From contig NZ_BAJV01000012.1 in NCBI RefSeq assembly GCF_000613885.1, positions 62,001 to 126,000 on the forward strand: DNA of 64,000 bases. The letters run 5' to 3'. A program made the translations under genes and the position numbers. The DNA comes from Asaia prunellae JCM 25354 (lineage in GTDB: Bacteria; Pseudomonadota; Alphaproteobacteria; Acetobacterales; Acetobacteraceae). Below are positions 5,902 through 19,527 of the stretch, one piece after another; position 1 is the stretch's first letter; each line of letters opens with the position of its first letter. The notes beneath the pieces were generated by a model that saw only the letters and a program-made list of their open reading frames with translations, ran no database searches and was not told the origin of the DNA.

Positions 5902-6914
5902 TTATTCTTGTCCTTTTCCGGCGGCACGCAGCGTGCCGACTTCTCGTCCATTCCAGTTTTTCATTACCTGATGCGACAATCCGGTCAGCACGGCGCGGTC
6001 TGCATCAGACCAGCCAGCCTCATCGAACCCGAGCAGAAGTGCGGCAAGGGCCACCTCTGCCGCCCGGTTCGCGCCATCATCGGTTTTGATCGCTATGCCG
6101 AGCCCGAGTTCGGGCACAGATGCCACCATCACCCCTTCTGCACCCATTTTGCAAAAGATTCGGTTACCGAAATGCGCCATCAATGTCGTATCGAAACGCC
6201 CGCTCCCTGCCACCATGAAGGGCTCGGACGCGACAGCAGAACGCAAGCGGGCGGCTGCCGACGCATGGCCCGATGAAAAATTTTTTCCTGTGCCAAAACG
6301 CGCAAAACCCGTTGCCAGAGCGGAGAGGGGAATGGCGTAGGTTGGCATCGAACAACCATCGAGCCCGCGATTGGTCTCCTCATGCGGGACAGATGTGGCC
6401 ATGACAAGCGCTTCGGTTACCTGACGCTGTGCTTCATGGGTGGGGTCGATATAGCCAGAAGGGTCGAGAGACTGGTCGATCGCGAGGCAGATCAGGCCGG
6501 CATGCTTGCCTGAACAGTTGTTGTGAAGTGCTGAGGGATGGCGCCTGAGGCGGCAAGCGCATGAGCTGCCTTGTCATAGGTGGGCCAATGAGCTCCGCAT
6601 TCGAGACATGTCAGCGTTTTGCCAGCTTTTGCCAGCATTGCGGCGGCCGTCTCGGTATGTCGTGGTTCGCCGCCATGAGAGGCGCAGGCAAGAGCCAGCT
6701 CGGCATTGGTCAGGCCCAGCCGATCGGCAGCACCGGTTTCGACCAGTGGGAGAGCCAGAAGCGCCTTGACCGTCGAGCGTGGAAAGACTGGTCTCTCAAT
6801 GGCCCCATGCGCCCGAACGACACGGCCGGTATCGTCCATGACGGCAATTCGGCCGAGATGACGGGATTCGATGCGTCCGCCGCGCGTGACTTCAGCTAGG
6901 GCGATATCGTCCAT
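5902..6914 (-). CDS. L-asparaginase II family protein, frameshifted as sequenced
   Basis: Hydrolyses asparagine to aspartate and ammonia. This is the COG4448-type asparaginase II family, about 337 residues, not the classical type. The N-terminal segment has PRSTVKAL and a HGGEPRH stretch. The second frame supplies the family hallmark HNNCSGKHAG, then GLDGCSMPTYAIPL, and a C-terminal FCKMGAEGVM with GLGIAIKTDDG. The frames join near 6527 at a C run, and the change equals one lost base. It lies between an unknown gene and the sugar transporter in the zur transcription unit. Confidence 0.82.
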
Positions 6915-8055: not shown

Positions 8056-8918
8056 TTGCGCCAGACCCTGTTCCTGCTGATCTGCTTCCTGTTCCTGCCG
8101 GGCTCTGCCAGAGCTGAGCCGGTGAAGGTTTTCTGTGCCGAAGCCCTGTGGTGCGATCTGGCCGAAACCCTGGGGGGGAAATCTGTCACTACGACCAGCA
8201 TACTCACGTCGCCACGGATTGACCCGCATGATTTTCAGGTCACGGCTGATATGGCCCGCAAGCTGGCGGATTCCAATATCGTTCTGATGATGGGCGGTCA
8301 TTACGATGACTGGATGCCACCATTGCTGGCGGCTCAATCCAGTGCATCGCGTCAGATAATTTCGGTTGCCGCTCTGGCAGGTCTTGGACCGCAGGAAAAT
8401 CCCCATCTTTTTGACGACCCGACAGCTATTGGCCTCATGGTTGCAGCTCTCTCGACAGAGCTTGTGGCACGCCTTCCCGACGAGGCTGGAGGTATCAGGC
8501 GCGTCAGGCGGATCTCGAGTCGGTCATAGGAGCCTTTTCCGGGCGGCTGAGGACATTGCGGCTTCAGACACAGGGAATGAAGATTGCTGTGGCCGAACCT
8601 GTAGGCGGACCTCTGCTTCAGGCGCTTGGAATCGAAGTTGTTGATCCTGAATATGCTCTGGCGACCATGAATCACGATGACCCGGCCCCCCGCGATATAG
8701 CCCGCCTGGAAGATGCGATGCGCCAGAAGACTGTCCGTCTTCTGATCATCAACCCTGCCATGAAGACCCCGTCTGTAAGCCGTATTGAGGCTATCGCGCA
8801 GAAAGCTCATCTGCCTGTTGTGGATTTCGACGAATTTCCAGAAGCCGGACATGCTTGGCAACACTGGATGCAGGATCGGCTTGACCGGCTTGCCAGGGCA
8901 CTGGGCGTTCATGACTGA
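8056..8918 (+). CDS. znuA: Zinc ABC transporter substrate-binding protein, frameshifted as sequenced
   Basis: Periplasmic zinc-binding protein delivering Zn2+ to ZnuBC. It has a TTG start, a signal peptide ending near GSARAEP, the DPHDFQ metal-His segment, GGHYDDWM, and in the second frame MNHDDPAP and VDFDEFPEAG, which carry the remaining ligands. No long His-rich loop is present. The join lies near 8490 (second frame GGYQARQADLESV) and equals one lost base. The stop overlaps the znuC start by 8 bp. A Zur operator sits directly upstream. Confidence 0.82.
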
Positions 8919-9588
8919 CAATTCTCCTGCGATCCTGCTGAGGCAGGTCACGCTGAGCCATGGCGCGCGCGTGCTTCTCGACCGGGCCGATCTTTCTCTG
9001 GCTTCCGGAACCTTTACAGTTCTGGCGGGCGCGAATGGCCATGGCAAGACAACCCTGATGCGCGCCCTGCTTGGTTTGCATCCCGTTCATGAGGGGGAAA
9101 TCCGGACTCTCGGCCGGAAACCGTCCGCCGCCCGGCGATGGATTGGCTATATGCCCCAGGAGCGCAGGATTCCCGCGCCACAGCTTACGGGGAAAGCCCT
9201 TATCAGTGCTTCGTGGCGTGGCACATCTCTGGGTCTGCCAGGATGGGGGCAGGGTGCAAAAACAGCGCTGAAAGCGGCTTTGACGCTGACCGGGGCAGAG
9301 GCATTGGCAGCCCAGCCTTTGAACCAGCTTTCAGGCGGCGAACGTCAGAGACTTTTTCTGGCCGAAGCCCTGCTCGACAATCCTGCCCTGCTGATACTCG
9401 ATGAACCATTGAGTGGCATGGATATGGATTGGCAGCGCAGGATTTTGGCCATGCTCAGGGCGCGTTGTCGCGAGACGGGCATGGCGGTGCTGATGTCCTG
9501 TCACGGGCTTGAGGAAGTCAGCAGGTTTGCCGACCATCTTCTTCAGATTTCTCAGCGTAAACTGGAGCTGAGCGATGTTGCATTATGA
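8911..9588 (+). CDS. znuC: Zinc ABC transporter ATP-binding protein
   Basis: A 225-residue ABC ATPase that powers zinc import. It has Walker A GANGHGKTT, Q-loop MPQERRIP, signature LSGGERQ, Walker B LLILDEPLSG and an H-loop in MSCHGLEE. The ATG at 8911 was chosen over a longer upstream frame because it overlaps the znuA stop by 8 bp, as usual for this operon. Its end overlaps the permease start by 14 bp. No frame problem is present. Confidence 0.88.
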   Translation: MTDNSPAILLRQVTLSHGARVLLDRADLSLASGTFTVLAGANGHGKTTLMRALLGLHPVHEGEIRTLGRKPSAARRWIGYMPQERRIPAPQLTGKALISASWRGTSLGLPGWGQGAKTALKAALTLTGAEALAAQPLNQLSGGERQRLFLAEALLDNPALLILDEPLSGMDMDWQRRILAMLRARCRETGMAVLMSCHGLEEVSRFADHLLQISQRKLELSDVAL

Positions 9589-10388
9589 ATTCATGCAGAA
9601 TGCCTTTCTGGCATCGGGCGTCGTAGCTGTTCTGAGTGGATTGGTGGGGTGGTTTCTTGTTCTGCGTGGCCAGAGCTTTGCCGGTCATGCCCTGTCTCAT
9701 ATCGGTTTTGCCGGTGCGACCGGAGCAGCGCTGGTAGGGCTGACGCCCTTCATGGGTATGACGCTTTCTGCAGTTGCGGCCGGACTGGTTCTGGGCTGGG
9801 AAGCAGAAGGCGATCTGCGCGCGAATCCGGCTTCTGCCAATCATCGTGACAGCGTGATAGGGCTTGTTCTGGCGGCGAGTCTCGGGCTGGGACTGTTATT
9901 CCTGCAGTGGCAGCATATTCCGGTCAGCAGCACCACCGCCCTGCTTTTCGGTAATGTTCTCGGGGTGAATCACGCTACCTTGTGCTTGCTGTTCCTGCTC
10001 GCGGGACTTTGCCTGTTTGGTCTGTGCTTTCTGACGAGGCCTCTGCTTTTTGCGAGTCTTGATCCCGATCTGGCCGCGGCGAAGGGCGTCAGACTGCGTC
10101 TGGTTTCCTGCGGTTTCATGAGTCTTGTAGCGCTGGTTACAGCCATCTGTTCGGAAACCACGGGAATATTGCTGGTCTTCAGCCTGCTTATTGGCCCGGC
10201 AGCTGCATGCTGCGTCTGGGCCTTGCTCCATGGCAGGGGCTGGCTGGCTCTGCCCTGCTGGCATTAGCGCTTTCCTGGGGAGGCTGGTACTCTCCTGGTA
10301 TACGGATGCACCGGTCTCATTCTGGATCAGCGCCGGTGCCGCATGCAGCTATCTGGCCGTGCGATTTCTTGCGCCGACAACCCATTAG
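9575..10388 (+). CDS. znuB: Zinc ABC transporter permease, two frameshifts as sequenced
   Basis: Inner-membrane permease of the zinc importer (ABC-3 family), with about eight hydrophobic helices. The first 210 residues are in frame (LRGQSFAGHALSHIGFAGAT, family-typical). The C-terminus is read through two more frames: LRLGLAPWQGLAGSALL from about 10200, then LVLSWYTDAPVSFWISAGA from about 10285, ending at the TAG at 10386. Both changes equal one lost base. A conserved end in the expected place argues for sequencing indels rather than decay. Confidence 0.82.
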
Positions 10389-10530: not shown

Positions 10531-10597
10531 GCGAGTCTCCTTATCGATTTTTACCGGACAAGGGTAAACCAAATAGCCGGTGTCCGGTTATAGCGTC

Positions 10598-12078
10598 ATG
10601 AAAAATAATACAGAGACGCGTCATCGCGAAGCGACGAATCATGACGAACACCCAATCGAGGTTTCGCCTTATGCGAAATACATCCTGATTCTTGCAGCCG
10701 TTGTCGCTGCCATATGTGGCGGTCTCTATGGTTATGATACGGGTATCATTTCCGGTGCCCTTCTGCTGATCTCGGATGATTTTCATCTTGGCAGCACAAT
10801 GCAGGAAATGGTGGCTTCCGCCATTCTTGCCGGTGCCATTATCGGCGCATTGGCAGCGGGGTCGTTTTCTGAAAAATACGGGCGTCGTGCCTGCGTGACC
10901 CTTGTGAGTGGCGTGTTTGTTCTGGGAGCCTGGCATGCGCCTTTGCTCCGAATGTATGGCTTCTGATCGTTGCGCGCATTTTTCTGGGATTTGCTGTGGG
11001 TGGTTCAACCCAGGTGGTACCCATGTATATCTCGGAGCTGGCCCCTGCCGAAAAGCGCGGTACTCTGGTGACGATGTTCAACGTGGCCATCGGGCTCGGT
11101 ATTCTGCTGGCCAATATCATCGGCTTCACCGAGCGTGAGGCCTGGGGATGGCGTCCAATGGTTGGGCTGGCTGCCATTCCGGCTGCGATCGTTTTTGTCT
11201 CGATGTTCTTCATGCCCAAAAGTCCGCGCTGGACGGCAGAGAACGAGGGCATGAAACGCGCCATTATCGAGCTTGGACGTATTCGTACCTCGAAAAAGGT
11301 TATCCGCAGGGAAGTGCGCGAAATGCGCGAAAATGCCGAAGCGGCCGATCCACGCAATCGTGGCTGGAAAGGTCTGTTTCGCCCCTGGGTACGCCCGGCT
11401 CTGGTCGCGGCACTGGGTGTTGCCTTTTTTACCCAGTGTGGCGGACTGGAAATGATGATCTACTATGCGCCGACCTTTCTGCGTGATGCCGGATTTGGCG
11501 CTTCCTCAGCCCTGATGGCCTCCCTCGGTGTGGCCATTACCTACTGCATCATGACATTCATTGGATGCCTGATTGTCGATCGCGTGGGGCGTCGTCGCCT
11601 CATGCTGATCATGGGACCGGGTTCGATCGTGAGTCTGATCGGACTGGGCATTGTATTTGCCATGCACCCGGCAGCGCATAGCGTGGGGTCCTATCTGGTG
11701 ATCGTGTTCCTTCTGCTGTTCATGGCGTTCAATTCAGGAGGTATTCAGGTCTGTGGCTGGCTGCTGGGTGCGGAGATGTTCCCGCTCTCCATGCGCGGTC
11801 AGGCCACCAGCCTTCATGCTGCGACGCTCTGGGGCTCGGATCTGCTGGTAACCGGTACGGCGCTGACACTGGTGCAGCTCATCACATTGGGTGGTACGAT
11901 GTGGTTCTATGCAGCCGTGAACCTTGCCTCAGTGCTGTTCATTTTCTTCTTTGTCCCTGAGACGGCGGGGGCCACACTCGAAGATATCGAGCTTGCCCTG
12001 CACGAAAAACGCTTCCGCCCCACGCGCGGTCATACACGTATCGTTTCCGAAGACGAGCAGCAGGAAGCAGCTGCCTGA
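10598..12078 (+). CDS. MFS sugar:H+ symporter, frameshifted as sequenced
   Basis: Second sugar porter in the window, about 490 residues. It has GGLYGYDTGIISGALL in helix 1, SEKYGRR, then in the second frame VARIFLGFAVGG, PKSPRW, FFTQCGGLEMMIYYAP, VDRVGRRR and PETAGATLEDIE. The join at about 10931 reads GCCTGG where GCCCTGG would keep the frame, so one C is missing. A GTG at 10580 could extend the N-terminus by six residues. The stop abuts the stop of the convergent VWA gene with no spacer, so transcripts probably overlap. Confidence 0.83.
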
Positions 12079-13245
12079 TCAGCCGCCGGTCACAAGTGGA
12101 ATGCCCTGCCCACCTGCCCAGGCATGAAGGTCCTCCCTCTTCAGGGCTGCGGCCATCATGTCAGGGAAACGGTCGGGTGTGCAGGCAAAGACAGGGCACC
12201 CCATAGCAGCGAGCGCACGGGCGTGGCCCATGTCAAAGCCGGGACGCCCATCATCAGAGAGTGCAAGCAGGACGATGAGATTGACGCCAAGGTTCACGAG
12301 GTTTGCTGCCCGCTCCAGCATCTGTCTGGCATCACCGCCCTCGTAGAGGTCACTGATCAGGATGAAATGGCTCTGTGCAGGGCGTTCGATCAGAGACGTG
12401 CCATAGGCCAGCGCGGCATTGATATCTGTGCCACCGCCGAGCTGAATGCCGAAAAGGACGCTGACCGGATCGCTGAGCTGTTCCGAGAGATCGACAACAG
12501 ACGTATCGAAACAGACGAGCCTCATATCCAGTACCGGTAAAGATGCCATGACAGCAGAAAAGATCGAGGCATAAACGACCGAGCTTGCCATGGAGCCGGA
12601 TTGATCGACGCACATCACGATCTGATCCAGATCGGCTCTGGTCCGGCGCTGTCTGGCGTGGCCGATCAGTTTCTGCGGGATGATCGTCTGATATTCAGCT
12701 TGCCAGTGATGCAGATTGGCCCGGATCGTACGCGGCCAGTCAATATCGGCGGGGCGCGGTCTGGTTGTACGTTCACGACGATTGACTGCCCCCCTGACAG
12801 ATTCGGCCGTGCGGCTGGCCAGTCTGGCCATGAGTTCAGCAACGATTTTTCTGACGACAATACGTGCGGTCTCATGGGTTTTTGCAGGCATGACATTACG
12901 CAGGGCCATGAGATCCGCCACAAGATGGACGTCGCCTTCGAGGCTCTGGAGCAGTTCCGGCTCAAGAAGCATTGCCTTGAGATCGAGCCGCTCCAGTGCG
13001 TCTTTCTGGATGATTTGCACGACCGGCGCAGGGAAGAATTCGCGAATATCGCCGAGCCAGCGGGCGATCTGTGGCGCAGATCCGCCAAGGCCGCCCTTGC
13101 GTTTGCTGCCTCCGGCAGCTGTTTCATAAAGAGCGGACAAAGCGCGGTCGATACGCCTGTCCCTTTCGCAGAGACCGTTTGGCTCGTCTGTTCCGAGTGC
13201 GAGTTGCCATCGCCTGTTTTTCTCGGCGCGCAGATCCTGGTTCAT
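12079..13245 (-). CDS. VWA-domain protein of the MoxR/SWIM cluster (YehP-like)
   Basis: A 388-residue cytoplasmic protein with an alpha-helical N-terminal half and a C-terminal von Willebrand A domain. The metal-ion-dependent adhesion site is intact: DQSGSM (about residue 218), the Thr in GGGTDINAAL (about 275) and the Asp in LISDLYEGGD (about 300). VWA proteins of this kind partner with MoxR ATPases, and one is encoded two genes upstream. The start overlaps the DUF5682 stop as ATGA, indicating translational coupling. It resembles E. coli YehP in size and neighbourhood (from memory). Confidence 0.8.
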   Translation of the reverse strand: MNQDLRAEKNRRWQLALGTDEPNGLCERDRRIDRALSALYETAAGGSKRKGGLGGSAPQIARWLGDIREFFPAPVVQIIQKDALERLDLKAMLLEPELLQSLEGDVHLVADLMALRNVMPAKTHETARIVVRKIVAELMARLASRTAESVRGAVNRRERTTRPRPADIDWPRTIRANLHHWQAEYQTIIPQKLIGHARQRRTRADLDQIVMCVDQSGSMASSVVYASIFSAVMASLPVLDMRLVCFDTSVVDLSEQLSDPVSVLFGIQLGGGTDINAALAYGTSLIERPAQSHFILISDLYEGGDARQMLERAANLVNLGVNLIVLLALSDDGRPGFDMGHARALAAMGCPVFACTPDRFPDMMAAALKREDLHAWAGGQGIPLVTGG

Positions 13246-15610
13246 GAGACGAATCCCAGAATACGATGCAGCAGCGGCAACGCCAGATCGGTGAATTCGG
13301 CAGGCAGGACGTCTTGCCGGCTACCCTGTTCAGAGTGTCGCTGCGCCGGTTCTGTATCCGGCGTCTGCTCCAGGCTCGTCAGAAGGCGCTTGCGACTTGA
13401 GAGCGCAAAAGCACTGAAACACCGGCGCAGCATAGGCAGAATTTCCATAAAATCAGCCTCGTCCAGAACACCAATCCAGTGATCCAGCGCGTCAAGAAGT
13501 GCGCGATCCTGCGCGATGATCTCGGCCCCGCCGGAGAGAAAGCCATCAATATACTGGCCGGCACTGACCGCTCTGCTGGGAGGCAAAGTGGCACGCGAAA
13601 AACAGGTAACCACCTGTTCAACCGGTAAAATCTGCCGTTCATGAAGAAGACGCAGGGCCAGGCCACCAATCAGGGGGGCGACGCGATCGTTTCGAGTGGC
13701 TTCTGCCAGGGTCTGGTTCCAGAGCCCAGTCAGATGCGTCTCGCCGAACAGGGTCAGAGCATGATCAAACGCAGCCATGGTCGTGCTGATGGGCCGTGCA
13801 CCCTGCGGGTCGATATCTGTCGTTGCCATGACAAATCCCGTGCAGATCTCGACACAAAGCAGAGAGACGAGCGCGCGCAGGGGATCGATTGGTAACGGGC
13901 GTGACGTCCCGTAGCGTAACAGCGAGACCAGGGTTGTCACGCTTTCCATCAGGGGGGAAATGGCCTGACTCGTGACGGCGACATGCTGCAATCTTGTGAT
14001 GGTCTGTTCCGCGGCATCCTCCAGTCCGGCGAGCAGACATTTCTGGACGAGGGCCGCAAGCCTGCCGACATCGTGGCTCTGCCTGGCTTCCTGTATGGCC
14101 TTGTTGCGTGCGGCCTGTTCTATGGTGGCACCATAAGGCAGGGCCTGAACGAGGGCGAGAGCGACAGAAGGGGACCAGGTCAGACGCCAGGTCTCGCGAT
14201 AGGTGCCGCGTCCGGCAGCGCCGTCGAGCAGGGTCGCCCAGGGAATGTCGATCACAGACAGTCTGTGCAGGAGTGTCGAGCGTAAAAGTCCGGCCTCTGT
14301 TCTGAGATCAAGGGCGATATCGCGTAGCAGATCATCCGGTTTGAGACGGCATTTTTTCTGCCATCGTTCCAGATCGCGTGCGAGGGGTATCTGAGGTACT
14401 TCCGGATCGAGTGCACCGATCTGCTCACCTTTCAGAAGGCGGGATTCAATCAGATCGAGCGGCGCTGTATCACCATGGCACAGGGCAGAAAGCGTGGCAT
14501 CACGCATTTCCTCCAGATCAGGCAGGGGCTTGTTTCTTAACGCTGCAAGGGTCAGTGCGAGGCGGGCGGCCTCTATGGTCGAGGCGGGAGAAGCAACCAG
14601 CTTTTCTGTACGAAGGAACCCGGAGACTCTTGCCATCCAGCGCGCCGTGAAATCCTCTGCGGAAGAGGCACCTGCAGCGCCCCGCAAAGACCAGAGATGG
14701 CGATACCACCCCGGCGCCTTTACCCCGGCGCCATATCCCGATCCGGCAGCGAGACGGGAATCACTCCAGGGAACCCAGGCTGTTTCTGTCCTGACTTTTT
14801 TCAGGTCGCGTATGAGGGTGCGATCGGCCGTCTGGGATGTCTTGCGTCTCAGAGCCGGGACATGCCAGGCCCCGACGATGACGGCGATCTCCCCATCGGT
14901 ATCCTTGAGTGCCTGACGCAGGGCGATACGCATGAAGGCTTCGCGTATCTGATCGCGCCTTTGCCGTGTATTGCCCAAAAACGATTCCTGCTCTGCTGCG
15001 TCCCGCAGGGCTGTCATGGCGTTTTCTACAGCCTCGAACATCTCGGGGCCGGACGGGGTATGTTCGACCATGGCGTGCCACCAGGATTCACCATCCTCAT
15101 ATCCGGCGAGCGGGCCAGATCATCCATGGGATCGGTGGGGTGCTGCGTCGACGGGAGATCTGCTTCCTGCCGGCGCAAAGCACCATCATCGTCTGGAACC
15201 AGTTCATCGGGAATGGTCTTGTCGGCAGCGGGCTCAGCGGATTCGAGCGTACCAGAATCCTCGTCCCCGGCGCTCTGTTCTGTTTCCCAGGCGAGCAGGC
15301 AGGATGCGGGCCAGTCGATAAAGCGTACCGGGCGTTCATGTGACCGTGCCCAGCAGAGGGCCTGCCATTCGGGCGAGTATTCCGCGAAAGGCGCAAAGAC
15401 GGCGTTGACCGGGTTGTCAGACTGGTAATGAAAAAGCGCAAGGGGCAGGGACATGCCGGGCAAGGTGGCACAGGCGATGAGGGGATCGGCCTCGGGTTGC
15501 CCTTCAATCAGAAGGACCGCAGGGTCGAGCGCATCAAGCGCTGTGACCAGGCTTGCGGCGGAACCGGGGCCATGATGGCGGATACCAAAAAGATGAAGGC
15601 GCGGATCCAT
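13242..15610 (-). CDS. DUF5682 family protein, frameshifted as sequenced
   Basis: A large protein of about 790 residues. The N-terminus has FGIRHHGPGSA, LLIEGQPEAD, FAPFAEYSPEWQAL and RFIDWPAS, the pattern of DUF5682, a family I recall as related to ChaN/EreA-like folds with conserved His and Glu. After a variable acidic linker, the second frame gives LAGYEDGESWWHAMVEH and continues 600 residues. The join near 15108 equals one lost C. The C-terminal half is helical, without obvious motifs. It starts 6 bp after the MoxR stop. Its activity is unknown. Confidence 0.72.
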
Positions 15611-15616
15611 GGGATT

Positions 15617-16699
15617 TCAGATCACATCCCTGATGGCCCCGTAGAGATCGCGCCAGCCCTCGCGCTTGCGCACGACATTTTCGAGATATTCCTGCAGGGC
15701 CTGACCATCGGCGGTCGGATCCTTGACCACAGCTCCCACGATATTGGCGGCGAGAGACTGGGCATCCATCCTGCCAGAGCCGAAATGGGCGGCCTCTGCC
15801 CAGGCATTGATCCCGACAGAAATGGCCTCGGCGGTGGAGAGTGAGCCGGAAAGCGGCTTGAGCTTGAGTTTGCCATCCAGTGTCTGTTCGCTGCGCAATT
15901 CACGAAAGATCGTGACGATGCGGGCGATCTCGGCATCCGCAGGCGCAATGGGGGGAAGCGCCAGGGAAAGGCCTGTCTCTGCAATGCGACGGGTCACGAT
16001 ATCGGTTTCTTCCTCAATCGTGGCAGGGGCTGGCAGGACAACGACATTGAAGCGTCTTTTGAGGGCAGACGACAATTCGTTGACACCCTTGTCCCGGTTA
16101 TTGGCGGTGGCAATCACGTTGAAGCCCGGTCTGGCATGGATCGCATCATCCAGTTCCGGGATCGGCATCATTTTTTCCGAAAGGATGGTGATGAGCGTAT
16201 CCTGGACATCAGACCCCATACGGGTCAGCTCCTCAAGACGCACCAGGGTACCTTCCTCCATGGCGCGCATCATGGGCGTACGCACCAGTGCATCGGGTCC
16301 GGGTCCGTGGGCCAGAAGCATGGCATAATTCCAGCCATAACGTATCTGGCTTTCATCGGTGCCGGCGGTACACTGGATGACCCTGTTCGAGGTGCCCGAT
16401 ATGGCGGCAGTCAGATGTTCGGACACCCAGGATTTTGCGGTACCCGGCATGCCAAGCAGAAGCAGGGCACGGTCGGTGGCCAGTGTTGCAACAGCGGTTT
16501 CTATCAGTCGGGGGTTGCCGACATATTTTGAACTCACCGGCGTACCATCAGCGGCCTGGCCGCCCATCAGGTAAGTCACGACGGCGCGGGGCGACAGGGC
16601 CCAGTTTGCCGGGCGGGCATGGGTATCACCACGTCTGAGGGCGTCCAGCTCGTCAGCATAACGGTCTTCCGCGCTCTGGCGCAGGCGGGTTGCGGTCAT
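15617..16699 (-). CDS. MoxR-type AAA+ ATPase (YehL-like)
   Basis: A 360-residue AAA+ ATPase, expected to remodel or load a partner together with the VWA protein. Walker A is GMPGTAKS (about residue 83), sensor 1 is IATANNRDKG (about 198), and the arginine-finger region is LSSALKRRF. The Walker B position reads LVRLEELTR, with Glu where Asp is usual. The ATG overlaps the upstream DUF5691 stop (ATGA). The DUF5682 gene follows after 6 bp. Confidence 0.85.
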   Translation of the reverse strand: MTATRLRQSAEDRYADELDALRRGDTHARPANWALSPRAVVTYLMGGQAADGTPVSSKYVGNPRLIETAVATLATDRALLLLGMPGTAKSWVSEHLTAAISGTSNRVIQCTAGTDESQIRYGWNYAMLLAHGPGPDALVRTPMMRAMEEGTLVRLEELTRMGSDVQDTLITILSEKMMPIPELDDAIHARPGFNVIATANNRDKGVNELSSALKRRFNVVVLPAPATIEEETDIVTRRIAETGLSLALPPIAPADAEIARIVTIFRELRSEQTLDGKLKLKPLSGSLSTAEAISVGINAWAEAAHFGSGRMDAQSLAANIVGAVVKDPTADGQALQEYLENVVRKREGWRDLYGAIRDVI

Positions 16700-18174
16700 G
16701 AGGGCGTCTTTTCCTGATAGAGTTTGATGAGGATATCGGCCAGCAACACGGCGCGACGGCTCTGGTCGGGGTGCAGATCGATCATGCGCCGTTTGAGCGG
16801 CCCGATCTGTCCGACTGGTGTCAGAACCATGCAGGCAACAAGGGTGTTTTCCTGAGCCCGGGGAGCGGACAATACGGCGTCGGTCAGAATGCTGGCCTGT
16901 TTTTCGGGCAGAGGCATGCCAAGCGCATCAGCCAGGGTCTCGATGGCGCTCGCAAGGTTCTGAAACTGGTAGCTATGGGCTTCATCCCAAACAGGTAGCG
17001 GCTTTTCTGTTATGGCAGCGACATAGTTCAGACGATCGACAGACGATCTGAGGCCCGGCTTGTCGAAACCGTATCGGACAAGAAACGGCCAGATCGGCTC
17101 TCTGGCACAGGAGGCTATCAGTGAAAGAAGCGTCCAGTTTCTGTCATTTGCGGCCGCAATGCCAAGGCAGTACATCAGGGCAAGATCGTCCGAAGCCGCG
17201 GTTACCAGATCCTGCTCCGACAGAGCGAGCTGCGCGGCCAGGGTACGTATCGACAGGACATCGCATGCCATGGCAACCCAGTTCAGCATGAAATGGGAGA
17301 AGCCCCCCGCAAGGCGTTTGCTGGCAATATCGGCCGGAAGCTGAAGGCTCACAGTGATCCTGCGTCTGAGCAAACCGTTTTTTGAAACTGTGACACGGGA
17401 AGCGAAGTCTGTCAGCTGAGCCTCGGCATAGGCAGACCCGGGCAGGTGACCCAGTATTCGCTCGCTTTCCTGTCTGACAGGACCAGATCGATCCGTTCTT
17501 ATGCTTTCAAGTAGTGGCTTGTCGTCACCGGAGAGGGCGATCCAGAGGAGTGAGACCAGTTCCAGACGTGCATCGGCTTTCTCCAGCGGTAATTGCGCGG
17601 CAATCAGGGCGCGAGCCTGTGCAGGGTCCCTGTGACGGAGTGCCTCCAGAAAAGAGAGTCTGTGTGCATGAGAGGCTTCTGCAAGAAGGGTCGTGTCGAT
17701 GGCACCGTTTTCGGTCAGCAAAAGGGAAAGTGGATCTTGTGCTTCCAGACCCGGCTCGTTGAGTACCGCTCTGAACCGTTGCCTGAATGTCCTGAGTTTA
17801 GGGCCATCAAAGGGGTGAAGCGTCCGTCCGAGGCGCGAGAGGTGATGGGCAAGGGCGATAGCGGCACTGTCCGTGGCACGTCCGACAGCATTGCCGACCA
17901 GATGGATGATGTCCGGACGCAGCGCCTGCGGAACGATGGCCCCTGACGAATGATAGGGAGCGATCGTATCGAAATGCTCTGGTGTGGCGGGCATCCTGAA
18001 AGACTCTGCCTGTACGAACAGCGTCATGACACCCAGGGGATCGATATTGTGCCCCTGTTCTGTGGCAGAGGGAGTTTCTCGGGGAGCAACGCAATATGCA
18101 GGCAGTGTGGCGCTGTCGATCGGGCGTCGTGCCAGCCCCTGCAGCAGGGACTGATAGAGAGGCGAAGTGTTCAT
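16696..18174 (-). CDS. DUF5691-type helical repeat protein
   Basis: A 492-residue protein from the ATG at 18174, which overlaps the SWIM gene stop in a TGATG arrangement; a start 21 codons upstream is open but less likely. The sequence is alpha-helical with HEAT-like character (for example PAQARALIAAQLPLEKADAR and DDLALMYCLGIAAAND) and no catalytic motif. The DUF5691 assignment is from memory of this conserved neighbourhood. It is probably a scaffold or adaptor of the MoxR/VWA complex. Confidence 0.65.
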   Translation of the reverse strand: MNTSPLYQSLLQGLARRPIDSATLPAYCVAPRETPSATEQGHNIDPLGVMTLFVQAESFRMPATPEHFDTIAPYHSSGAIVPQALRPDIIHLVGNAVGRATDSAAIALAHHLSRLGRTLHPFDGPKLRTFRQRFRAVLNEPGLEAQDPLSLLLTENGAIDTTLLAEASHAHRLSFLEALRHRDPAQARALIAAQLPLEKADARLELVSLLWIALSGDDKPLLESIRTDRSGPVRQESERILGHLPGSAYAEAQLTDFASRVTVSKNGLLRRRITVSLQLPADIASKRLAGGFSHFMLNWVAMACDVLSIRTLAAQLALSEQDLVTAASDDLALMYCLGIAAANDRNWTLLSLIASCAREPIWPFLVRYGFDKPGLRSSVDRLNYVAAITEKPLPVWDEAHSYQFQNLASAIETLADALGMPLPEKQASILTDAVLSAPRAQENTLVACMVLTPVGQIGPLKRRMIDLHPDQSRRAVLLADILIKLYQEKTPS

Positions 18175-19527
18175 CACGGCGTCCATGCGCCAAGAGCCGT
18201 CTCGGCGAGGAGCGGGGTATAATGCCGACCATCCCATGTGCCGAATATGCCTATCTCATCGAAAGGGCAGAGAGGCGAAGCGATATCGGTGATGGACTCG
18301 CTCAGGGGGAGGGCAAGACCGTCGCCTGTCAGATAAAGCCTGTCTTTTGCCTGCCGCAGACTGACGCACGAGGCGTAGAAGGGAAACGCGCCAAGCATGG
18401 CAGTCTGGCCAGGGCTTGGCGCCAACCGGTCATGGCGGAGCTGAGCGATTTCGCAGGGCATTGCCACGGGTCCGAAGAGGCAGCCACACCTGTACTGGTG
18501 ACGATCTGCGCCCGGAGGGGAACGGGAGATGGATAAAAGGCAAGCTCTGCTGTTAGTCTGTCATTCACCAGCACAGGCAAAGAGCCTGTTTGGCTCGCCG
18601 GTGCCAGATAATCGACCAGAAGAGCAACGACACCCGGGTCTTGTTCAAAACCAAGCCAGGTATCCACACGAGTCAGGCGGTCAGGCTGGAGTGTCTCGGT
18701 TCTGGCAAGCACACGCCATTGTCCGGAAAGGCGCAGGGTCTGTGTATCAGCAAACAGTTCCTCTCTTGTAAACGTCCAGCCTGCCATGCGCCTGGCATCT
18801 GCCACAAGATGAGGGTCCAGCCTTCTGCCCTGAGGCAGGCCTGGCCGATGAGATATAGCGTCGAGAGGCATCGTGCTGCCTCGAACGGGCGCTCCCCTGC
18901 ATCCAGCGATGAGAGGGATTCGGGAAGCCGGGCGACACGACTGGCCAGCCCGCCTGCTTTGGAATCATGCAGACGTTTGGCCAGAATGGCGCAATCCACA
19001 TTTGCGCGTTGATCAAACCCGGCAAGGCCGCGATCGAGCTGGTCACCCAGCCACTGGTTCATGGCGGCGATGCCCGAGGCGATTTCGCTTTCACGACGGG
19101 CGCGCGTTTTGGCTTGCTGAGCCTGTTTCTGTGCAGTTTCTGGCCCGGAAAGAGCTGTTTTGTCCTGTGAGGGTGCTTCTGACTTGTCTTTTGATGCAGT
19201 GCGACGACGCGACAGCCATTCCTGCACCCAGTCGGGAACGGTCTCGCTGACGAATGTTACGCTTCGCTCAGCGCGAAATCCCATCAGTGCCAGACTGTGC
19301 TTGCAGGGAAATTTCCGGCTCGGGCAGGTGCATTTGAATCCTGCATCCGTTTCTGAAAGACAGATCCGATAAGGTTTGGCTCCGGAGCCCTGACACTCTC
19401 CCCATACGAGACCGTTGCCGTCTTCACCGAGTGTGACCCAGTTTGAAGGGTTCATCAGTTTTCTTGCTGCAGCAAAGCTGGCTGTATCCGGCGCAAGCCG
19501 CGCAACGCGATCCATGGCGTCTGACAA
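18174..19527 (-). CDS. SWIM zinc-finger protein, two frameshifts as sequenced (YehQ-like)
   Basis: First gene of the five-gene operon, about 450 residues in three frames. The SWIM finger is FKCTCPSRKFPCKH at about residues 69-82 (C-x-C then C-x-H), a motif that binds DNA or protein. A Lys/Gln-rich charged linker (QKQAQQAKTRARRESE) follows. The second frame from about 18815 (PHLVADARRMAGWTFTREE) and third from about 18400 (MLGAFPFYASCVSLRQ) continue one protein. Each change equals one lost base. The stop overlaps the DUF5691 start. Confidence 0.72.

Follow-up and report, generated by a model that had tools for sequence, protein, structure and literature searches.

The SWIM, DUF5691, MoxR, DUF5682 and VWA genes of Asaia prunellae form, by sequence comparison, one unit that is conserved across several phyla. 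In a minority of loci the unit is linked to RNA-repair genes, and for RlaP this linkage is above chance. These neighbours are a new observation, absent from the earlier note on this DNA. We tentatively propose that the unit may be an ATP-driven MoxR-VWA machine that, as part of a response to RNA damage, deploys a TIKI-like hydrolase; this reading is plausible but held at rather less than even confidence.

In the window, the 64,000-nucleotide stretch of DNA that was analysed, the five genes are found at positions 12079 to 19527 of the minus strand in the 5' to 3' order SWIM, DUF5691, MoxR, DUF5682 and VWA_CoxE. Reading of the sequence gives TGATG at the SWIM/DUF5691 junction (18176-18172), ATGA at DUF5691/MoxR (16699-16696), a spacer of 6 bases between MoxR and DUF5682 (15616-15611) and ATGA at DUF5682/VWA (13245-13242). 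The order and junctions given in the earlier note match the sequence, and its families, a MoxR-VWA pair with a SWIM finger, a helical-repeat protein and DUF5682, are confirmed by Pfam and, for the helical repeats, by AlphaFold; two breaks in the SWIM gene and one in DUF5682 went unmentioned. The features, with E values from a Pfam scan of the window pieces, are as follows.

18174-19527, minus strand: SWIM zinc-finger gene in three frames (Pfam SWIM 6.3e-5; tblastn with the intact Asaia lannensis protein)
18673-19527, 18329-18871 and a tail to 18174, minus strand: open reading frames, parts of the split SWIM gene
19297-19332, minus strand: SWIM motif CTCPSRKFPCKH (position checked)
16696-18174, minus strand: DUF5691 protein, predicted alpha-solenoid (Pfam 5.9e-25; AlphaFold of the A. 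lannensis homologue; segment in common with DUF4132)
15617-16699, minus strand: MoxR AAA+ ATPase, YehL-like (Pfam AAA_5 9.4e-35; 90% identity to A. lannensis)
16427-16453, minus strand: MoxR Walker A region GMPGTAKSW (position checked)
15026-15610, minus strand: DUF5682 N-terminal piece, homologous part 15110-15610 (Pfam 1.2e-29)
15569-15586, minus strand: first GxxH motif of DUF5682, in the N-terminal piece with an invariant Glu
13242-15071, minus strand: DUF5682 main piece with C-terminal helical repeats, homology from 15110 (Pfam 3.2e-162; AlphaFold of the A. lannensis homologue)
14862-14873, minus strand: second GxxH motif of DUF5682, GAWH, in the main piece
12079-13245, minus strand: VWA protein, CoxE family (Pfam VWA_CoxE 5.8e-53)
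12592-12606, minus strand: VWA MIDAS motif DQSGS, intact (position checked)

Of the 80 MoxR relatives that rank best by similarity among 581, 75 have the complete five-gene set; this sample is non-random and includes near-copies from Mesorhizobium. DUF5691 is above the cut-off in seven of 398 Pseudomonadota genomes, the window's included, and all seven have a DUF5682 of this architecture adjacent; two further genomes have a DUF5691 match below the cut-off. The earlier note had let its candidate system stand or fall with co-conservation of the five genes, which these counts bear out. DUF5682 is above the cut-off in 14/398 Pseudomonadota, 7/326 Bacteroidota and 6/297 Acidobacteriota genomes. A MoxR relative is also found in 40 records of a plasmid collection, some of chromosome size, and a locus on an Iodobacter plasmid adjoins restriction-modification genes.

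The MoxR-type Walker A and B patterns are conserved in 79/80 MoxR relatives, the VWA motif DxSGS in all 76 relatives having the gene and the SWIM pattern CxCPSxKxPCKH in 78/80, both misses starting at a contig end. MoxR identity is 60-90% within its own kind, to which the tree built here is confined, and the window MoxR matches the bpMoxR model at 4.9e-7, just above that model's cut-off. At a MoxR identity of 60-65% the corresponding values are 54% for VWA, 38% for DUF5682, 32% for DUF5691 and 31% for SWIM, of which the DUF5691 figure is flattered, since identities were taken from local BLAST and DUF5691 was compared in 1024 of 1151 pairs.

The unit appears to be a sister architecture of the E. 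coli molR-yehI-yehLMPQ genes. The E. coli operon (metG-molR-yehI-yehK-yehL-yehM-yehP-yehQ) likewise unites MoxR, DUF5682, VWA and SWIM genes but has large DUF4132 proteins upstream of MoxR where DUF5691 is found here, and its SWIM gene is at the 3' rather than the 5' end. Of the YehL-subfamily traits, MoxR-type Walker motifs and an operon with DUF5682, VWA and SWIM genes are present. The parallel with yehLMPQ drawn in the earlier note holds in a refined form, as a distinct branch: MoxR is about 40% identical to YehL, over 95%, DUF5682 is 27-31% identical over the matched parts among the E. coli matches listed, and DUF5691 replaces DUF4132/MolR. The WGR-DUF4132 neighbour in E. coli is presumably MolR.

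Where the E. coli branch has DUF4132/MolR, this unit has the helical DUF5691 protein. AlphaFold models the A. lannensis homologue as nearly all helix (pLDDT 89.7), and a HEAT-like segment is common to DUF5691 and 16 DUF4132 sequences, which may reflect similarity of repeat type. Foldseek gave no match to this model with E <= 0.001, the best being helical repeats, proteasome subunits included. Weak annexin profile matches (best 0.004) were judged helical chance matches, and no paper on DUF5691 was found in the literature searched. Because DUF4132 genes sit in the Deinococcus damage regulon, LexA and RDRM boxes were sought upstream, using LexA patterns and an RDRM pattern loosened from excerpts of PMC8533742; one match in 77 stretches is about chance and the window operon has none, and DNA-damage control was rejected.

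The N-terminal domain of DUF5682 looks like a TIKI/TraB-type hydrolase. H12, E36, D99, E173, R193, R213, E214, G237 and H240 are found in all 79 DUF5682 sequences, from both architectures, and G9 in 73 of them, giving two nearly invariant GxxH motifs and a Glu as in the TIKI/TraB hydrolases. The His-Glu pair and distal His given as conserved in this superfamily in excerpts of PMC6254334 have counterparts in H12, E36 and H240, with a His-Glu spacing of 24 residues vs 28 in Bcr135. Like TIKI, TraB, ChaN and Ere, the domain alternates strands and helices, and in the AlphaFold model of the intact A. lannensis protein (pLDDT 90.2) the strand order suits the TIKI parallel beta-sheet core. The DUF5682-TraB profile score is 29.8, against a mean of 14.8 and a maximum of 23.8 for 60 decoys and 24.9 for an unrelated VWA profile vs TraB; TraB and ChaN, described as kin, score 29.0. 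The DUF5682-ChaN score is 19.8, such that TraB alone, not ChaN, lies above the decoys. DUF5682 differs from these families in giving no significant fold match: Foldseek returned none with E <= 0.001, the best being helical proteins. The 25 Pfam families listed, out of 36 matched by 64 DUF5682 proteins (E up to 10), include no TraB, ChaN or Ere model. We infer that DUF5682 is the only enzyme-like part of the unit; no paper on it was found in the literature searched.

RNA-repair genes (Hen1, Pnkp, RlaP, RtcA, RtcB, RtcR, Ro60) flank the unit in 5/104 loci and in 1/12 loci of a fresh sample. In two of these six a cassette lies upstream on the same strand: RlaP-RlaP-Hen1-Pnkp in L055, where Pnkp ends 42 bases before SWIM, and Hen1-Pnkp-RlaP-RlaP in L193, from the Bacteroidota of the fresh sample. 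The others have RtcR and Ro60-VWA (L053), RtcA-RlaP-RtcB-Ro60 (L101), RlaP-RlaP-RtcB (L121) and, near an operon of the other architecture, RtcB (L034). The cassette proteins differ from those of the operon, which mostly lacks such neighbours: no RNA-repair gene was found in the fetched flanks of 99/104 loci, in 11/12 fresh-sample loci or in another 14 stretches of 20 kb surrounding seven loci, some of these flanks being shortened by contig ends.

RlaP was observed in the flanks of three loci vs 0.054 expected (P 2.5e-5), and of two vs 0.023 (P 2.6e-4) when the block of loci that prompted the idea is excluded; the expectation assumes even gene placement, and the idea came from inspecting flanks. 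At the genome level RlaP is present in 11/28 operon-bearing Pseudomonadota genomes, a count that leaves out the ungrouped, RlaP-bearing L115, vs 20/200 (Fisher 2.3e-4, a comparison that genome size and taxon confound). Among those 200 genomes, RlaP is present in 3 of the 9 or 10 with DUF5682 vs 17 of the rest (P 0.05-0.07). The unit can exist without these repair systems, since the window's own genome gave no RtcB or RlaP match and 25/49 operon-bearing genomes no RlaP match. All-against-all BLAST of 573 flank ORFs from the 80 loci, in which the largest cluster spans 12 loci with mixed positions and strands, did not pick up the RNA-repair genes, since these belong to different families at different loci. 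Separately, TROVE was above the cut-off in 15/48 genomes, a baseline-free count not entered as evidence. No paper on this operon was found in the literature searched on MoxR, SWIM or VWA plus RNA repair, and excerpts of PMC7159879, PMC11090510 and PMC7824862 do not mention it.

In the proposed RNA-damage response the five genes would encode one protein machine. The MoxR ring, coupled via the VWA protein, would load or remodel DUF5682, while substrate recognition would fall to the SWIM protein and the DUF5691 solenoid, the target probably being an RNA-protein complex that has suffered damage. When RNA is damaged, the machine would work together with RNA-repair enzymes or alongside them, and a possible task is to dismantle or clear complexes holding cleaved tRNA or rRNA. 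The alternatives weighed against it are not mutually exclusive.

NorQ-NorD and RavA-ViaA also pair a MoxR ATPase with a VWA partner, to our knowledge without DUF5682, SWIM or solenoid parts, and CoxD-CoxE is an insertion chaperone for CO dehydrogenase. The clients or partners of NorQ-NorD and RavA-ViaA named in excerpted reports are respiratory enzymes, among them nitric oxide reductase for NorQ-NorD, and NorQD is described in excerpts of PMC9976466 as inserting iron. The unit may be a dedicated metal- or cofactor-insertion chaperone whose client is either DUF5682, which has invariant His, Glu and Asp residues, or the product of a gene located elsewhere, a reading that fits the CoxE family of the VWA protein and the link of MolR to molybdate (PMC8533742, in excerpt) but that we consider unlikely. 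No family adjoins the operon in more than 12/80 loci. Pfam scanning of 137 flank ORFs from 43 loci (215 were picked, 13/80 loci having been dropped as near-copies) found no family in more than 4/137 proteins among the 25 of 151 families listed. Excerpts of PMC8533742 report expression of the molybdate genes moeA and moeB unchanged in the Deinococcus experiment where DUF4132 genes rose, and metal insertion leaves the RNA-repair neighbours unexplained.

Similarly improbable is a general stress-time chaperone without an RNA tie, like RavA-ViaA. The MoxR-VWA pairing favours it, as does the place of YehL as one of only two MoxR proteins in E. coli K-12 (PMC3893208, in excerpt), whereas the six loci with RNA-repair genes nearby, and the hydrolase-like part and SWIM gene in 75/75 complete sets of this form, argue against it.

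The defence role raised in the earlier note, as an anti-phage or conflict system with a logic akin to the MoxR-vWA ternary systems, is doubtful. Those systems also combine MoxR, vWA and a third component in a conserved operon (Kaur et al. 2020, PMC7159879), and the patchy spread of DUF5682, the plasmid records, the Iodobacter locus and the tie of RNA repair to immunity (PMC4411300, in excerpt) would suit such a role. Their four subsystems, however, take their names from VMAP, iSTAND, FtsH and beta-propeller components and vary in their effectors, and the excerpted main text contains neither SWIM nor YehL. By Pfam none of these third components is present in any window piece, the partners being DUF5682, DUF5691 and SWIM, and gene-level comparison finds the identical set in 75/80 loci rather than variable effector domains; two Asaia species carry the operon at one and the same site. 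Nor did PADLOC give a defence signature: the seven window pieces had one weak match (0.0064) and 0/64 DUF5682 relatives matched at 1e-5. The survey of defence islands proposed in the earlier note found flanks no richer in PADLOC families (32 in 137 vs 32 in 118 control genes at 1e-10, 25/32 families being listed in each set), the controls being flanks of TraB and ChaN genes from Pseudomonadota only and the tested loci spanning several phyla. One viral-contig scan gave no confirmed relative, and phage origin, suggested by one unverified phage record with a 26% match to DUF5682, was rejected.

The frame breaks appear likelier to be draft indel errors than decay, because neighbouring genes are also broken and the five genes are intact at the same genomic place in A. 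lannensis. By tblastn, residues 2-256, 262-404 and 380-470 of the A. lannensis SWIM protein correspond to 19527-18823, 18808-18380 and 18470-18183, and DUF5682 residues 1-157 and 158-777 to 15610-15110 and 15110-13245. Also split within the same 16 kb are neighbours identified by eye as a sugar transporter, ansA, znuA and znuB; in this stretch 6/12 genes compared with A. lannensis are broken, with seven frame changes in total. That the window copy alone is decaying and non-working in Asaia prunellae is suggested by its three frame changes but is rather unlikely, given the 84-94% identity to A. lannensis on either side of the break in the transporter and ansA, which points to draft errors, and the 90% and 76% identity of MoxR and VWA.

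A more specific form of the RNA-damage reading, which as a whole we regard as a distinctly long shot, is a quality-control machine in which the MoxR-VWA motor would drive the TIKI-like DUF5682 onto RNA-protein complexes, guided by the SWIM finger and the MolR/DUF5691 solenoid. DUF5682 would cut protein or the aminoacyl- or peptidyl-tRNA ester bond, freeing cleaved tRNA for mending by Pnkp-Hen1 or RtcB, and E. coli molR-yeh would be a second form. The proximity to RNA-repair genes in some genomes gives the function of the five-gene unit a testable direction. Together with the putative hydrolase assignment of DUF5682 and the segment common to DUF5691 and DUF4132, it would bring several families under one testable hypothesis, which can be checked in E. 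coli, whose molR-yeh operon appears to be the sister form.

Pfam assigns the five genes that run on the minus strand from 19527 to 12079, in order, to a SWIM protein, DUF5691, a MoxR ATPase, DUF5682 and a CoxE-type VWA protein, and the gene junctions described in the earlier note (TGATG, ATGA, 6 bases and ATGA) were all present when read from the sequence. A MoxR-alignment scan of named genomes found at least 581 relatives, the best 80 of which were kept for analysis. In 75 of these 80 loci the five genes are complete and in this order; of the remaining five, four stop at the end of a contig without reaching VWA, and one carries at the DUF5691 position a frame of 545 residues for which there was no BLAST match. 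The SWIM motif CxCPSxKxPCKH is present in 78/80 relatives (the two misses are cut at a contig end), both Walker motifs of MoxR are kept in 79/80 and the VWA MIDAS motif in 76/76. By tree labels, the best 80 belong to the Pseudomonadota, Bacteroidota, Acidobacteriota and Thermodesulfobacteriota, with single bins from the Verrucomicrobiota, Myxococcota and Actinomycetota; a plasmid copy adds Deinococcus to the range. Among 398 Pseudomonadota genomes, DUF5682 was found in 14 and DUF5691 above the cut-off in seven, with two more matching DUF5691 below it, and the seven are exactly those genomes whose DUF5682 has the window architecture. The five genes are one conserved unit; the co-conservation on which the earlier note had staked its candidate system is borne out by both the 75/80 loci and the seven genomes among the 398.

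Variants of the locus were also seen. A Desulfovibrio bin has a tandem pair of DUF5691 genes (L090:4090-7604), and MoxR and DUF5682 are separated by one or two small additional genes in Deinococcus, in Hymenobacter and in a Bacteroidota genome (L022:11089-11325, L023:11115-11726 and L193:17256-18330), a possible accessory slot. In a Myxococcota bin a gene for a LonB/LonC-like AAA protease is directly downstream of VWA (L059:6919-9474).

The window's genome is a draft of 3.18 Mb in 38 contigs, and the nearest relative lies in Asaia lannensis, where all five genes are open. Two of the five, SWIM and DUF5682, are broken in the window, which the earlier note had missed: when the intact A. lannensis proteins are aligned to the window, their matches are spread over three frames for SWIM and two for DUF5682. 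Altogether six of the 12 genes compared with A. lannensis are broken, inside about 16 kb, the other four being as follows.

5911-6914, ansA, broken by a frameshift with respect to the A. lannensis gene (named by eye)
8056-8912, znuA, broken by a frameshift with respect to the A. lannensis gene (named by eye)
9578-10364, znuB, broken by a frameshift with respect to the A. lannensis gene (named by eye)
10583-12066, sugar transporter gene, broken by a frameshift with respect to the A. lannensis gene (named by eye)

Some of the split genes are still 84-94% identical to A. lannensis on either side of the break, and accD, folC, the operon, the transporter, the znu genes and ansA are in identical order in both. 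As the neighbours are also split, the order is kept and the A. lannensis copies are open, the breaks are probably indel errors of the draft rather than decay, and any other gene that looks broken in this genome should therefore be judged with care.

A second architecture is found in E. coli, where the order is metG, a WGR-DUF4132 gene (which we take to be molR), a DUF4132 gene (yehI), a small gene, yehL, yehM, yehP and yehQ; this form also occurs in other sampled genomes, where a SWIM gene was not always detected. MoxR proteins share 60-90% identity inside the window form and about 40% with E. coli YehL, and the slot directly upstream of MoxR holds DUF5691 in the window form and DUF4132 in the E. 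coli form. A helical, HEAT-like segment is common to the profiles of these two families (score 40.5; 40 decoys reached at most 21.9). For comparison, the profile of the helical half of DUF5682 gives 18.1 with DUF4132 and 21.5 with DUF5691. In six DUF5691-bearing Bacteroidota operons (L094, L097, L111, L113, L118 and L123) DUF4132 directly follows VWA, and therefore both helical proteins can share one locus; one genome, G344, has an operon of each architecture (L029 and L033). In Deinococcus radiodurans the DRA0165-0166 operon, with DUF4132, is reported to be upregulated on DdrO depletion and the DRA0166 protein to increase after mitomycin C, and the metG/DUF4132/yeh region of E. coli ST131 has received a resistance transposon, with 184 isolates in which this region is disrupted (PMC8533742, PMC9334617).

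Besides the Pseudomonadota, DUF5682 was found in 7/326 Bacteroidota genomes, above the cut-off in 6/297 Acidobacteriota, and in 3/150 genomes of the window's own family (two above the cut-off), all DUF5682 counts taking in the genomes used as centres. In the MoxR tree the window groups with A. lannensis and a Novosphingobium (support 100/99), and this group nests in a 12-member set that includes five Acidobacteriota (100/97), which suggests that the operon may have been transferred. The operon is rare and probably mobile. A DUF5682 relative with 26% identity was also seen in an unverified 14-kb faecal phage record (L229, MT835988.1), representing either contamination or real carriage.

The AlphaFold model of A. 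lannensis DUF5682, made with 64 relatives, is confident (pLDDT 90.2) and shows an alpha/beta domain at the N-terminus and helical repeats after it. Eight residues (H12, E36, D99, E173, R193, R213, E214 and H240) are invariant in all 79 sequences of both forms, as is G237, with G9 in 73/79. In the model, G9-x-x-H12 follows the first strand, E36 closes the second and G237-x-x-H240 comes after a late strand. This layout resembles that of the TIKI/TraB/Ere hydrolases, whose described features include a His-Glu pair and a distal His (PMC6254334). The DUF5682 profile scores 29.8 to TraB (decoys up to 23.8), about equal to TraB with ChaN (29.0), and the alignment covers the first GxxH and the Glu; with the window-form profile alone the best local match to TraB falls on the second motif. 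Against such a kinship, an unrelated VWA profile scores 24.9 to TraB, and DUF5682 scores only 19.8 to ChaN. No TIKI-type Pfam model was among the families shown for 64 DUF5682 members, and no solved structure matched by sequence, or by fold at E <= 0.001. Profile comparison moderately supports a possible TIKI/TraB-like N-terminal domain, making DUF5682 a candidate hydrolase.

Genes of RNA repair were found beside some of the operons. When 137 proteins encoded in the flanks of 43 loci (L045-L089) were scanned with Pfam, RtcR, Pnkp and Hen1 were identified. In L055, a bin placed among the Acidobacteriota by the tree, the operon is preceded on its own strand by two RlaP genes, Hen1 and Pnkp, with Pnkp ending 42 bases before SWIM, and in Rhizobium herbae (L053) the operon is followed by RtcR and a Ro60-type protein. 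The idea was then tried on loci outside those that gave rise to it. Downstream of VWA in a Sphingomonas (L101) are RtcA, RlaP, RtcB and a Ro60-like gene, and a Pontibacter (L121) has two RlaP genes and RtcB less than 6 kb from VWA; RlaP and Ro60 were named by similarity to Pfam-named proteins, and the others we take to be RtcA and RtcB from sequence signatures. In an E. coli-like locus (L034) an RtcB homologue is 1.6 kb from the DUF4132 frame. Such neighbours occur in 5/104 distinct loci and in one of a fresh sample of 12 found by DUF5682 in Bacteroidota and Acidobacteriota, so that most loci are without one; in this locus (G757) the operon comes after Hen1, Pnkp, RlaP and RlaP, all on one strand save for a small opposite-strand frame. 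None was found in 14 further 20-kb stretches around seven Pseudomonadota loci, and neither RtcB nor RlaP had a match in the window's own genome. RlaP is present in 24/49 operon-bearing genomes searched, and three RlaP clusters were observed in operon flanks against 0.054 expected if placement were even (P = 2.5e-5), or two against 0.023 outside the discovery block (P = 2.6e-4). RlaP occurs in 11/28 operon-bearing Pseudomonadota versus 20/200 genomes of the phylum (Fisher, 2.3e-4), a difference that genome size and taxon may confound.

No paper naming DUF5682 or DUF5691 was found in the literature searched. A link between the operon and RNA repair may already stand in the 2016 RNA-repair survey of Burroughs and Aravind. 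YehL has been named as a MoxR subfamily (PMC3893208); a term search of the main text of a paper on MoxR-vWA ternary systems found neither SWIM nor YehL, and the paper mentions RNA repair once, in the reference list (PMC7159879).

Defence, one of the possible roles named in the earlier note, is in the narrow sense not supported by PADLOC comparisons of the operon and flank proteins; RNA repair itself has been linked to immunity (PMC4411300). Sequence comparison shows which parts make up the operon and that they are inherited together. By analogy with MoxR biology, the MoxR ring would act with the VWA protein on a client and, since no outside family accompanies the operon at more than 12 of the 80 loci, this client would most simply be DUF5682 or a cell-wide target on which DUF5682 acts. 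Recognition would come from the SWIM protein, since such fingers bind nucleic acids or proteins, and from the solenoid, a type of structure that holds partners. Given the RNA-repair neighbours, the occasion for such a machine may be damaged RNA or its protein complexes.
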